Source: Acidimicrobiia bacterium (lineage in GTDB: Bacteria; Actinomycetota; Acidimicrobiia; Acidimicrobiales; Bin134). From it: a stretch of DNA of 64,000 nt. Both the position numbers and the translations under genes were made by a program. The notes beneath the pieces were generated by a model, which saw nothing but the letters and a program-made list of their open reading frames with translations, had not been told where the DNA came from and did no database searches. Positions within the stretch are counted from its first letter, which is position 1, and each line of letters opens with the position of its first letter. The DNA is taken from NCBI GenBank assembly GCA_022822265.1, contig JAJECA010000042.1, positions 1 to 64,000 of the forward strand. The letters are read 5' to 3'. Positions 30,626 to 39,822 of the stretch are shown here, piece after piece.

Positions 30626-31165
30626 ATGGAAACCACCACCATCTTGTTGCCCACCGGCGAGGTGAACGAGCCCGCCCAGCCGCTGGCCATACGCAAAGAC
30701 TCGCTGGCCGGCGCGACGGTGGGCATCATCGACAACGACATGTGGCGGTCTATGGCCATCATGGCCGACGAGCTGTCCCGCCAGTTGGTGGACAAGGCCG
30801 GGGCGGCCGGGGTGGTGGTTCGGGCCAGCGGCCCCATGCACGGCGCCGACCCCGAGCAGTATCGACTGGAGATGGAGGCCTTCCACAAAGAGGTCGACGC
30901 GGTGATCAGCGGCTTGGGCAATTGAGGCTCGTGTACGGCGTGGTGTATCCACGCCAGCAGCACGCTGGAAGCCATGGGGACTCCTGCGGTGGGCCTGGTG
31001 ACCGAGCAGTTCCGGGGCCTGGCCGAGGCCACCGCCCGGGGCCTGCGGGTGGACAACCAGCCGCTGATCGTGTTGCCGTCGGGCTACGACGAATGGGCGG
31101 AGGACGACATCAGGGCCGACATCGCATCCCGTCTCGACGACATCGTGGACGCGCTAGTGGCATGA
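30626..31165 (+). CDS. UGSC-family selenoprotein (in-frame TGA read as selenocysteine)
   Basis: 179 residues if TGA at 30923-30925 (codon 100) is read as Sec; GGGAGG lies 5-6 bases before ATG 30626. Upstream and downstream parts are in one frame with no other stop: ...VDAVISGLGN-U-GSCTAWCIHASSTLEA followed by MGTPAVGLVTEQFRGLAEAT. The U-G-S-C motif, the invariant context GTPAVGLVTEQF and a C-terminal helix match the UGSC family, which resembles the Sec region of glycine-reductase component GrdB (UGTCTRCG-like). A SECIS-type hairpin follows the TGA at once. Without Sec the gene would yield a 99-residue fragment lacking the motif. Function unknown; redox or reductive cleavage chemistry is suspected. 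A conserved partner gene follows after 40 bases. Confidence 0.9.
30926..30964 (+). promoter_or_regulatory. Bacterial SECIS-like hairpin of the UGSC gene
   Basis: Just after the TGA, GGCGTGG (30937-30943) and CCACGCC (30949-30955) form a perfect 7-bp stem with 5-base loop TGTAT; CGTG (30930-30933) can pair with CACG (30961-30964) below an internal loop. There are 18 bases between the UGA and the apical loop, and the loop has a G at its second position; both agree with the published bacterial SECIS consensus as I know it. SelB would bind here. Confidence 0.75.
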
Positions 31166-31205: not shown

Positions 31206-32252
31206 ATGACCCAGCAGGTTGACGTCGACGGCGGAGTCGACGAGGTAGAGGCCTACTTGCGAGAACGGGGCATGACCGACGGGCTGCCGGTTGTTCCCCC
31301 CACCCCCGAGCGGGTGGACGCCGCGGTGGCCGCCTCCGGGCTGCCGGCCGACCATGTGGTGAGCGACGTGCCCCCGCTGAACGCGCCGGCCACGGTGGAG
31401 AAGATCGCGGTCAACGCGGTGATGGCCGGCTGCTCGCCTGAGGCGATGCCGGTGCTGATCGCCGCCATCGACGCCTTCTGCGACCCGCAGATGAACGCCC
31501 ACGGGGTGCAGACCACCACCAACCCGGTGGGCCCGATGCTGGTGGTGAACGGCCCGATCCGGCATCGGTTGAGCTTCAACTTCGGTGCGGGTTGCTTCGG
31601 GCCGGGGGCTCACACCAACGCCACCGTGGGTCGGGCGCTGCGGCTGGCCTTGGTGAACATCGGCGGGGCCATCCCCGGCGAGGTGGACAAGGCCCCGCTG
31701 GGATGGCCCGGCAAGGCCACCTCGCTGTGCGTGGCCGAGAACGAAGAGGCTTCTCCGTGGCCGCCCTACCACGTGGACATGGGGTTCGACGCCGACGACG
31801 ATGTGGTGACAGTGCTGGCGGTGAACGGGATGTGGCCCATCACCGACATGCACCACGAGCCCGACCAGGTGCTGCACCACGTGACCAACGGCCTGGCCAT
31901 CAGCGGTCCGTGCGGGGGCCATGACGCCCCCAACCCGTTCCCGACCGTGCTGGTGATGAGCCCGGTCATCGCCGAGATGGTGGCCAGCCTTCTGCCCACC
32001 AAACAGGAATTGCGGGAGCATCTATTTGCCGAGGCCCGCGTACCGCTGGACTTCTACCCTCCCTATCGGCGCCAGCCCACCAGAGACGTGCTGGAGAATC
32101 TCGGCGTTGCCATTGAGAACGACCGGGTGCCGATCGTGCCCTCCCCCGACTACTTCGTGATCCTGGTGGCCGGCGGTGCGGGCGGGCTCCAGTCGGCAGG
32201 GCTGTCGTGCATGCTGGGCATGCCCACGAGTCGGCTGATCGCCGCTGGTTGA
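31206..32252 (+). CDS. Conserved protein of unknown function, partner of the UGSC selenoprotein
   Basis: 348 residues, ATG 31206. The N-terminus (VEAYLRERGMTDGLPVVPPT, then PERVDAAVAASG) and LNAPATVEKIAVNAVMAGCS are features I associate with proteins commonly encoded beside UGSC genes, but no function is known to me. Conserved Cys residues occur in MAGCSPE, AFCDPQMNAHGVQT and FGAGCFGPGAHTNAT, plus GPCGGHDAPNPFP. These with His could bind metal or take part in redox chemistry with the selenoprotein. Same strand, 40 bases after the selenoprotein stop, so an operon. No membrane segment. Confidence 0.7.
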   Translation: MTQQVDVDGGVDEVEAYLRERGMTDGLPVVPPTPERVDAAVAASGLPADHVVSDVPPLNAPATVEKIAVNAVMAGCSPEAMPVLIAAIDAFCDPQMNAHGVQTTTNPVGPMLVVNGPIRHRLSFNFGAGCFGPGAHTNATVGRALRLALVNIGGAIPGEVDKAPLGWPGKATSLCVAENEEASPWPPYHVDMGFDADDDVVTVLAVNGMWPITDMHHEPDQVLHHVTNGLAISGPCGGHDAPNPFPTVLVMSPVIAEMVASLLPTKQELREHLFAEARVPLDFYPPYRRQPTRDVLENLGVAIENDRVPIVPSPDYFVILVAGGAGGLQSAGLSCMLGMPTSRLIAAG

Positions 32253-36453: not shown

Positions 36454-36837
36454 CTAGCGGAGATCGCGCCAAGCCCATTTGGCACCTCGCAGGAGAAGTT
36501 CAGGGTCACCGGTCCACAGGGTTGCCTCGTGGCTGACGGCGGTGGCGGCGGCGAATGCATCGGCGTAGGCCATGGGATGGTCGGCTTTGATCCGTGCCGC
36601 CTCCATGATCCGATCAGAACTGGGAACTTCAGCGACCACAATTTCGTGAATGTCGCGGACAGTTGCTAATGCGTCTTTTTCTCCAGCTCGTCGGCGGATG
36701 ATGTAGAACACTTCGCCCATATTGATCCAGCTGACCAATGGCTTCTGCTCCCCAAGCAGACCAGCTACCGCAGACGCGGCTGGCTCTTGGTCTTCGAGGT
36801 ATCTCAGAATTGCCCAAGAGTCCAGGACTGCTCTCAA
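36454..36837 (-). CDS. vapC: VapC-type PIN-domain ribonuclease toxin
   Basis: 127 residues. The PIN-domain acidic residues are in RAVLDSWAILRYLE (Asp6), WINMGEVFYII (Glu43), PMAYADAFAAATA (Asp94) and LWTGDPELL (Asp111). The residues ARIKADHPMAYADAFAAATA are typical. It would cleave RNA, often tRNA, when free of antitoxin. The start overlaps the stop of the AbrB-type antitoxin gene by 4 bases, so the order is antitoxin then toxin. Confidence 0.92.
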   Translation of the reverse strand: MRAVLDSWAILRYLEDQEPAASAVAGLLGEQKPLVSWINMGEVFYIIRRRAGEKDALATVRDIHEIVVAEVPSSDRIMEAARIKADHPMAYADAFAAATAVSHEATLWTGDPELLLRGAKWAWRDLR

Positions 36838-37064
36838 TAGCGGGCCTCGCGTTGTCGCTCGATACGCCGCTCTGTTTCCAGGTCTTCGCTTAGCCCGAGG
36901 CCGCGGAATCGACCCTTGAGCGATTCCGTGTCGCGCACCACACGCAGCCCAACATGGTCATCGCAGTCCCAGAAGCTCACTTCGTCCCCGGGCTCAATGC
37001 CATACCGGTCGCGCATCTCCTTAGGAATGACGACCTGCCCTTTGGCTCCAACCTTATAGGTCAT
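36834..37064 (-). CDS. vapB: VapB-type antitoxin with AbrB/SpoVT-like DNA-binding domain
   Basis: 76 residues. The swapped-hairpin AbrB domain occupies the N-terminus (MTYKVGAKGQVVIPKEMRDR, then YGIEPGDEVSFWDCDDHVGL). The basic tail (KGRFRGLGLSEDLETERRIE) wraps the toxin. It should repress its own promoter. A -10-like TATACT (minus strand, 37072-37077) ends 7 bases before the ATG, so the message is probably leaderless. Confidence 0.92.
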   Translation of the reverse strand: MTYKVGAKGQVVIPKEMRDRYGIEPGDEVSFWDCDDHVGLRVVRDTESLKGRFRGLGLSEDLETERRIERQREARY

Positions 37065-37114: not shown

Positions 37115-38182
37115 CTACGGGCGGGCTTGGTAGATGATGTTGGCGTTGGACTCGGTGACCCGCTCGAAGCTGGAGTATCCGGCGGCGGTGAAGACGTCTC
37201 GCATGGCGGCTTCGCCAGCTTGTGCACCCATTCCCAGCCCGACCGGCTGGGCCAAAGAACACGGGACTCAAAACACGGCCGACGCCCCATAAGACGTGGC
37301 CGCCATGGGGTTCTCGGTCAGGTTTCGGACGTGGCCGTCGAGTGCGAACGGCTCCACCATGAGCACCGAGCCGCCCTCGGCCAGCTGGTTGCGGGCGTGG
37401 GCGGCGATTCCCACCGGGTCGCCCATGTCGTGCAGGCAGTCGAGGAAGAAGATCACGTCGTAGGCGCCCTGGTAGCCCTTGGAGTCGGCCACTTCGAACG
37501 AGGCGTTGAGGAGCCCAGCGTTGGCGGCCAGCTCGGTTGCCTGGTCGATGGACGGGCCGTGGAAGTCGAAGCCGGTGAAGTGCGACTCGGGGTAGGCCGA
37601 GGCCAGGATCTGCACGGAGTCACCGCAGCCGCAGCCCACATCGGCGGCGGTGGCCCCGGCCTTGAGCAGTTCGTCGATCCCGTCGGCGGCGGGGATCCAC
37701 TCGTTGGCCAGGTACATCTCGTACTGGGGGCGGAAGAACCGGGCGGTGGAGGTGAACAGACAGGGGTGGTGGTCACCCCACGCCATACCGCCATCGCCCT
37801 GGAAGGCTTCAAGGATGCCGTCCATGTCGGCGAACATGGCCCGGAACATGCCGATGCCCCCGGCCAAGAACGCGGGGCTCACCTCCCAGGCCAGCACCGC
37901 GGCGGCCTCATCGGAGAGCTTGAACGTGACATCGTCGTCGCCCTGACCGTCGATCTCCACCAACTCGACGGCGGCCTGCTGGCGCAGCCACTCGGTGACC
38001 AGTCGAGGATGACAGCCGACGGCTTCGGCTAAGGCATCCGCCGTCATCGGCCCCGCCCCGGCCATGGCCTGATACAGGCCCAGCTCGTCGCCGATGTGGA
38101 CCATGGCCATGGTGGTAGCCCCGGCCATGTGGGTGGCCACCTCGCCGGCGATCTCGGTTACCCGCTCAATGTCGATGTCCAT
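37115..38182 (-). CDS. SAM-dependent methyltransferase, candidate selenoprotein (TGA at codon 305)
   Basis: 355 residues if TGA (37268-37270) is read as Sec, 304 if it stops. ATG 38182. Residues 1-95 form a winged-helix dimerisation part (DELGLYQAMAGAGPMTADAL, AEAVGCHPRLVTEWLRQQAA). The Rossmann domain has ADVGCGCGDSVQILASAYPE (motif I) and VIFFLDCLHDMGDPVGIAAH. After the TGA the same frame continues VPCSLAQPVGLGMGAQAGEA to TAG, with AAMRDVFTAAGYSSFERVTE, which is the normal conserved end of this family (Rv2258c-like proteins are about 350 residues). The context SAVF-U-VPCSLAQ gives UxxC, and homologues I recall carry Cys there (xxCTPxSLxQ). A SECIS-like hairpin follows the TGA. Nonsense mutation is the alternative. 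Confidence 0.75.
37233..37251 (-). promoter_or_regulatory. Bacterial SECIS-like hairpin of the methyltransferase gene
   Basis: On the coding strand CCCAGCC, loop GGTCG, GGCTGGG: a perfect 7-bp stem and 5-base loop starting with G. There are 23 bases between the UGA and the loop. Stem length and loop size equal those of the UGSC hairpin. It lies within the codons for LAQPVGLGM. Confidence 0.6.
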
Positions 38183-38230: not shown

Positions 38231-39100
38231 CTAAGTGGAATAGCGGCCAGTGGTGCGGCGCTTCCAGCCGGCGGCGCCAATGTTGCCGCCGTCCACATGG
38301 ATGGTGGTGCCGGTCACGAATCGGGACATGTCCCCGGCCAGATACACAATCGAGGCGGCGCAGTCATTTACTGAGCCGCCCTCCAGCCACGGCTGGGGGG
38401 CCAACTGCGATCTCTCGTCGGTGCTCTCGTCGCCGAGCATGCGCTCGCCCTCGGTGGGAATCACATCGGGGGCGATGCAGTTGACCCGGATGCCCGCCGG
38501 CGCCAACTCCAGCGACAGGCTCATGGTCAGGTTGGCCTGGGCCGCCTTCATGGCCGAGTAGATGGAAAAGCCGGGACCGGCCCGATGGGCCTCGATGGAG
38601 GTGACGTTGATGATCGACCCCCCGTCGCTCATCAAGGGAATGCAGCCTCGGATGAACCCGGTGACCTGGGTGAAGTTCTCGGCGATGAGCGCGGCCTCGC
38701 CCTTGAGGCTGATGTCGGCGAACGGGGAGTTGAACGTGCCCCCGGCGTTGTTCACCAGCACATCCACCCGGCCATAGGCCTCGCCCACTTCGGCCAGCCA
38801 GGCATCTCGGGGCTCGGGATGGCGGACGTCGAACAGCCCGGTCACACAGCGACGGCCCAGTGCCTCCACTGCGGCGGCGGTGCGGGCCATATCGTCGGCC
38901 TCCCGGTCGCAGATGGCCAGATCGGCGCCGAAGCGGGCCAGCGCCACCGCGGTGGCCGCCCCAATCCCCCGAGCGCCACCGGTGACGATGGCAACCTTGT
39001 TTGTGAGCAGCACGCTGGACGGATCCAACACGTTGTCATCGCCCCAAATGGGAGGCTTATCGCTCTCCAGTCCGCCCAAAGTCCATTCCCAATCAGTCAT
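38231..39100 (-). CDS. Short-chain dehydrogenase/reductase
   Basis: 289 residues from ATG 39100, overlapping the VIT gene stop by 4 bases. After a 40-residue extension with no motif (MTDWEWTLGGLESDKPPIWG), the SDR fold starts with KVAIVTGGARGIGAATAVAL. NNAG, INVTSIEAHRAG (Ser) and YSAMKAAQ (Tyr, Lys) complete the catalytic set, and the C-terminus shows TTIHVDGGNIGAAGWKRR. NAD(P)-dependent; substrate unknown. The pairing with a VIT transporter is probably only transcriptional. Confidence 0.9.
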   Translation of the reverse strand: MTDWEWTLGGLESDKPPIWGDDNVLDPSSVLLTNKVAIVTGGARGIGAATAVALARFGADLAICDREADDMARTAAAVEALGRRCVTGLFDVRHPEPRDAWLAEVGEAYGRVDVLVNNAGGTFNSPFADISLKGEAALIAENFTQVTGFIRGCIPLMSDGGSIINVTSIEAHRAGPGFSIYSAMKAAQANLTMSLSLELAPAGIRVNCIAPDVIPTEGERMLGDESTDERSQLAPQPWLEGGSVNDCAASIVYLAGDMSRFVTGTTIHVDGGNIGAAGWKRRTTGRYST

Positions 39101-39822
39101 ACTCCCACCCCCACTGCGGAGCCGATTCCGAATGTGACCCCTGCGGCCACAGCGACAAAGAGTAGGTGGCGCAACGCGCCCCGCAGGATCGACCGGCTGG
39201 TGGCCAGCGCCAGCGCACCGCCCACCATCACTGCCCCGACCGCCCCGAGTATGACCGATGCCACGATGGCGCCGTTGCCGCCGGTAAAGAACCAAGGCAG
39301 CAGCGGCAAGATGGCGCCGAGAGCAAAGGACACGAACGAGGACGTCGCCGCGAATAGCGGGTTGCCCAACTCATTGGGATCGATGCCCATCTCCTCTCGG
39401 GCGTGAACCTCCAGGGCCTTCTCAGGGTCATCCATGATGTTGGAGGCCATCTCCCGAGCCATATCGGGGTCTACTCCACGGGATTCGTAGATCTCGGCCA
39501 ACTCCTCAACCTCGTGCTGTGGGTTGCGAGTGTGCTCTCTTCGCTCCATCTCCAGCTCCCGTTCCAGCAGCTCTCTTTGGGCCTGCATGGACAGGTATTC
39601 TCCGGCACCCATCGAAATTGCCCCGCCTATGAGGCCTGCGATCCCGACCAGCTGTACGAGCCCTTGTCCCGACGCACCCCCGGCAAACCCCAAGATAATC
39701 GCCACGTTGGACACCAGGCCGTCGCTCACCCCGAACACCGCCGCCCGGTACCCGCCCCGAGTCACATTGCGGTGATGCCCCTCACCCAAATGCCCCGAAC
39801 CGCTGGGCTTTCTTGCAAACAC
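39097..39822 (-). CDS. VIT1/CCC1-family iron or manganese transporter
   Basis: 241 residues, GTG 39822. Membrane helix 1 with YRAAVFGVSDGLVSNVAIIL is the VIT family hallmark, followed by GGAISMGAGEYLSMQAQREL, the second hallmark helix. A long acidic cytoplasmic segment (RELEMERREHTRNPQHEVEE, YESRGVDPDMAREMASN) carries the metal-binding Glu/His/Met residues of the VIT membrane-bound domain. Three more membrane helices follow. It probably moves Fe(II) or Mn(II) out of the cytoplasm. Confidence 0.93.
   Translation of the reverse strand: MFARKPSGSGHLGEGHHRNVTRGGYRAAVFGVSDGLVSNVAIILGFAGGASGQGLVQLVGIAGLIGGAISMGAGEYLSMQAQRELLERELEMERREHTRNPQHEVEELAEIYESRGVDPDMAREMASNIMDDPEKALEVHAREEMGIDPNELGNPLFAATSSFVSFALGAILPLLPWFFTGGNGAIVASVILGAVGAVMVGGALALATSRSILRGALRHLLFVAVAAGVTFGIGSAVGVGV

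Follow-up and report, generated by a model that had tools for sequence, protein, structure and literature searches.

The window analysed here, the whole stretch of 64,000 nucleotides, carries on its minus strand an open reading frame for a SAM-dependent methyltransferase (37115–38182) with a single in-frame TGA. The frame, with the ribosome-binding-like sequence AAGGA just upstream, starts with ATG at 38182, meets TGA at codon 305 (37268–37270), continues for 50 sense codons and ends at TAG (37115–37117). Reading through the internal TGA gives a protein of 355 residues, and this frame is exactly the one described in the original prediction. A gene caller ending frames at UGA would make the methyltransferase 51 residues too short. 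When the codon is read as selenocysteine (Sec), it forms a U-V-P-C motif with Cys308 (37259–37261, minus strand).

An SDR-family oxidoreductase gene (38231–39103, minus strand) lies directly upstream on the same strand, 48 nt away, and is linked to the methyltransferase gene in 17 of 17 carriers; the two look like one transcription unit. The upstream block as a whole (38231–39822, minus strand), consisting of the SDR gene and a gene for a VIT1/CCC1-like membrane protein, was likewise found in 17 of 17 carriers. Directly behind the methyltransferase gene is an AbrB-like and PIN-domain pair resembling a toxin–antitoxin system (36454–37064, minus strand). This pair was dropped as a candidate partner, as it adjoins the methyltransferase gene in only 1 of the 16 other carriers (L133).

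The same window contains a gene for a UGSC-family selenoprotein (30626–31165, plus strand) with Sec at TGA 30923–30925, confirming the neighbouring UGSC gene that had been cited in favour of Sec decoding in this organism. Its match to NF041046 (E value 6e-23) scored 81.5 bits, below the model cut-off of 125, indicating a divergent member. A U-x-x-C motif and a 7-bp/5-nt hairpin 3′ of the UGA are shared with the methyltransferase gene; the protein itself belongs to an unrelated and already known family. The gene about 40 nt past it (31206–32252) had no Pfam or NCBIfam match.

The Sec machinery of the host was searched in the genome, and all the components sought were found, in agreement with the original prediction. 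These were selA (405 bits, cut-off 268), selB (273.8 bits, cut-off 242.25), a tRNA-Sec gene (67.5 bits, cut-off 47) with the anticodon TCA as determined by ARAGORN, and a selD gene on the same contig that itself has an in-frame TGA (L097, G000:C11:115856–116800) and hairpins 3′ of its own UGA. Across 22 genomes of the genus, tRNA-Sec was found whole or in part in 20, selA in 21 and selD in 21; among the last, 20 genomes have a Sec-type selD and one has a fragment beginning after the site. The tRNA-Sec match begins at the first base of the contig in two assemblies (G252:C3 and G401:C183), indicating assembly breaks, and tRNA-Sec may thus look missing from assemblies that have it when a contig starts inside the gene.

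The methyltransferase protein matched two Pfam models above their cut-offs, the Rv2258c-like winged helix PF21320 (HTH_65; 35.9 bits, cut-off 24.1) and the class I methyltransferase domain PF13847 (55.4 bits, cut-off 27). An AlphaFold model with Cys substituted for Sec had a mean pLDDT of 92.7 and matched Rv2258c (5f8e_B; Z 39.9, rmsd 2.0 over 344 residues) and TnmJ (8g5s_B; Z 39.4, rmsd 2.4 over 351 residues), followed by small-molecule methyltransferases of the COMT type from plants and natural-product pathways (Z 25–28). These full-length model matches, together with the two domains, bear out the assignment to the Rv2258c-like family: the modelled protein is a full-length Rv2258c/TnmJ-like class I SAM-dependent methyltransferase of the COMT fold. 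In the model, Sec305 lies within the helix of residues 294–311. The equivalent region of COMT-type enzymes contributes to the wall of the substrate pocket. A helix at a comparable place in the COMT-type enzyme RedM forms the active-site wall opposite the interdomain helix, and the catalytic base in this fold is usually His (PMC10784701). His251, in the motif D-C-L-H-D, was placed as the COMT catalytic His, and His251-Asp252 is conserved. The order of motifs suggests that Sec305 would face the substrate pocket and that His251-Asp252 probably still acts as the general base. The genomic context of distant homologues gave no hint of the substrate. FmtB of Bordetella was dropped as a functional guide, its paper having Rv2258c solely in the reference list.

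The codon at position 305 was compared among relatives at several distances. A genus-level search found the methyltransferase gene in 17 of 22 genomes of this marine actinobacterial genus; 11 of these carriers have TGA at codon 305 and the other 6 have TGC, with no third codon, and the aligned stretch around this codon is free of gaps. Among the best 80 homologous loci, the codon is TGC in 68, TGT in 9 and TGA in 3, so that Cys occupies the Sec position in 77 of 80, and the 3 TGA loci are members of the same genus. When 20 diverse homologues with 44–55% identity were aligned, drawn from Pseudomonas, Nitrospirota, Zixiibacteriota, Acidimicrobiia and others, Cys305 proved invariant, as did P307, S309, C184, C249, H251 and D252. 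The Sec position holds Cys in the Mycobacterium protein Rv2258c but not in TnmJ. The expectation that homologues carry Cys where this gene has TGA was therefore borne out, and further TGA members were found in the genus. No TGA member outside the genus was found in 395 sampled genomes of the class and 396 of the phylum, nor among the best 80 homologous loci. Of the proposed UxxC motif, the presence of U-V-P-C stood, and Cys308 is kept in 17 of 17 genus carriers; the Cys three residues after the Sec position is not kept in the wider family, where most members have Asn, Ala or Val. A thioredoxin-like redox pair is thus not implied for the family as a whole.

The TGC genomes of the genus generally also possess the Sec machinery, and loss of Sec decoding therefore does not explain the Cys alleles. 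The occurrence of Cys alleles of the same gene in Sec-decoding relatives would fit a UGA that serves mainly as a regulatory switch, with a truncated, inactive protein at low selenium and a full-length enzyme at high selenium, and any Sec gene acts partly in this way. However, the residue replaced by Sec is an invariant Cys, probably structural or in the active site, which makes a chemical role the simpler explanation, and a primarily regulatory function appears improbable.

A candidate bacterial SECIS hairpin, CCCAGCC-GGUCG-GGCUGGG, follows the TGA at 37233–37251 on the minus strand (7 bp; loop GGUCG at 37240–37244; −14.2 kcal/mol). The perfect 7-bp/5-nt hairpin of the original prediction was thus found, with one correction: the distance of 23 bases given there is that from TGA to the loop, and the stem begins 16 nt 3′ of TGA. 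Bacterial SECIS elements have been defined by an apical loop of 3–9 nt, an upper stem of 4–16 bp, G in loop position 1 or 2, a UGA-to-loop distance of 16–37 nt and an energy of at most −7.5 kcal/mol (PMC13188914). A hairpin with all of these features was present in 11 of 11 TGA genes (−9.6 to −14.2 kcal/mol) versus 2 of 6 TGC genes (P = 0.006 by Fisher's test; in this as in the rank testing, related genomes count as independent). Every TGA gene has GGUC or GUC in its loop, whereas a different loop or stem is seen in the majority of the TGC genes in the genus. The protein sequence QPVGLG by itself favours a hairpin at the SECIS site, and about 25% of the codons in the genes of the window have a hairpin passing the same scan. 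Given this background and the kinship of the genomes, the hairpin supports the Sec reading and is insufficient alone. An Rfam search of the region at a permissive threshold gave no match to a SECIS model and one chance miRNA match only.

A rival reading, in whose favour the modest hairpin evidence counts, has the UGA decoded by one of the usual near-cognate tRNAs (those for Trp, Cys or Arg). The genome has tRNA-Sec(UCA), SelA, SelB and a Sec-type SelD, and the sole alternative residue found at codon 305 is Cys. Cys is the classic partner of Sec. Both observations argue against near-cognate read-through, which we regard as very improbable.

Selection on the two sides of the TGA was analysed in the 11 TGA genes only. 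The dN/dS ratio was 0.044 over the 50 codons 3′ of the TGA versus 0.097 over the 304 codons 5′ of it, and the 3′ part showed ample synonymous change (pS 0.347, pN 0.020). Beyond the terminal stop codon sequence similarity is lost, with unrelated DNA right after it in several carriers. The rival named in the original prediction was a nonsense mutation of TGC or TGT to TGA, which would leave a truncated enzyme and a decaying remnant. TGA is indeed one base from the Cys codons, but the 11 genomes retain it without gaps or further stops in genes that differ from that of the window by up to about 13% of nucleotide sequence, and dN/dS is lower after the TGA than before it. Since purifying selection acts on the 50 downstream codons in the TGA carriers, the nonsense-mutation reading fails and keeps hardly any probability. 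A sequencing or assembly error has practically no chance of being the cause: although drafts assembled from metagenomes make up most of the set, the identical codon occurs in 11 separate assemblies.

The conserved TGA, the matching Cys in homologues, selection after the TGA, the machinery and the hairpin together support reading the UGA as Sec, and on computational grounds Sec decoding is close to certain. We infer that the locus is very probably a selenoprotein gene in which UGA 305 is recoded as Sec to give a 355-residue methyltransferase of the Rv2258c/TnmJ type. The findings that could have spoken against Sec did not appear: homologues carry Cys or TGA at the position, the codon is not a sequencing error, and selB and tRNA-Sec are present.

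In the proposed mechanism, SelB and tRNA-Sec would recode the UGA at codon 305, aided by the hairpin 16 nt downstream, and Sec would stand in for the invariant Cys in the helix of model residues 294–311. If placed at the pocket, it would be a softer, more nucleophilic counterpart of Cys. Sec might contact the substrate, bind a thiophilic acceptor in the manner of ArsM or form a redox pair with Cys308. It is possible, though rather doubtful, that Sec does work in the active site, for instance as a selenolate binding or activating an acceptor of thiophilic character (As, Hg, Se, Te or a thiol).

The history of the Sec and Cys alleles was examined with two trees. In the tree of the methyltransferase gene itself, the TGA genes fell into two groups and a single origin was not rejected (p-AU 0.165). 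The second tree was built from the 1.5 kb upstream, a stretch linked to the methyltransferase gene in all carriers that takes in the SDR gene and a portion of the gene beyond. Here TGA and TGC rows interleaved and 4 changes were required; a single origin was rejected (p-AU 0.0005). This adjacent-gene tree speaks against a clean lineage history of the TGA, and repeated Sec/Cys exchange, or recombinational replacement between alleles in either direction, is therefore likely. The residue after codon 305 is Val or Ile in all TGA genes and Thr in all TGC genes, and codons 304–306 read TTT-TGA-(GTC/ATA/ATT) in all of the former and TTC-TGC-ACC in all of the latter (L100, L125–L136, L101–L104). The flanking codons switch along with Sec and Cys as if a whole block were exchanged. 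One assembly (G404, with 6% contamination) had two copies of the Sec methyltransferase gene (L125 and L137), one of them cut by a contig end, probably reflecting a strain mixture.

The closest known structures, Rv2258c (PDB 5F8C/5F8E/5F8F) and TnmJ (8G5S), share with this protein about 30% identity, the fold over the full length (Z about 40) and the winged-helix and class I methyltransferase domains (HTH_65 and Methyltransf_31), whereas both are ordinary 20-amino-acid proteins without Sec. The literature search found no described Sec member of the Rv2258c/TnmJ-type family and no report of selenoproteins in Acidimicrobiia. A 2026 inventory of prokaryotic selenoproteins, comprising 119 families or subfamilies, includes ArsM, ArsM fusions, MduS, methyltransferase/UXPK-star and a methylated-DNA methyltransferase, and has no entry for an Rv2258c-like enzyme or one of the COMT type (PMC13188914 Table 1), consistent with the statement in the original prediction that no Sec-containing member of this group had been described. 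The Sec-containing arsenite methyltransferase ArsM (NF008823) is likewise SAM-dependent and has the motif UxxG (PMC13188914); it belongs to another family, in contrast to the UxxC motif and COMT-type fold found here, and the protein did not match its model (NCBIfam, E ≤ 0.01). MduS and methyltransferase/UXPK-star combine a methyltransferase domain with two Sec residues, arranged as CxxU in MduS (PMC13188914), whereas this protein has one Sec, in UxxC, and no added domain; it had no NCBIfam match to either. A selenoprotein described as a SAM-dependent methyltransferase was predicted in the algae Ostreococcus and Thalassiosira (PMC2375036). The algal protein is eukaryotic, with a eukaryotic SECIS; what it shares with the protein here is Sec and its prediction as a SAM-dependent methyltransferase. 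With no such enzyme in the inventory and TGA found only in the genus, the gene represents, as far as the literature searched shows, a previously undescribed Sec form of an established methyltransferase family.

Most known selenoproteins are thiol-redox enzymes. Sec in a widespread family of small-molecule methyltransferases adds chemistry seldom tied to selenium, and the Sec form singles out the Cys that is invariant in many ordinary relatives as a probable functional residue. If Sec does work in the active site, non-redox Sec catalysis would reach beyond ArsM to the large COMT-type fold, and natural Sec and Cys alleles would have been exchanged inside one genus. In close genomes, with proteins 88–97% identical, this gene next to its SDR neighbour encodes Sec in some and Cys in others, with the machinery generally kept. 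Such alleles in close relatives provide an unusually clean natural experiment on the benefit of selenium to an enzyme.
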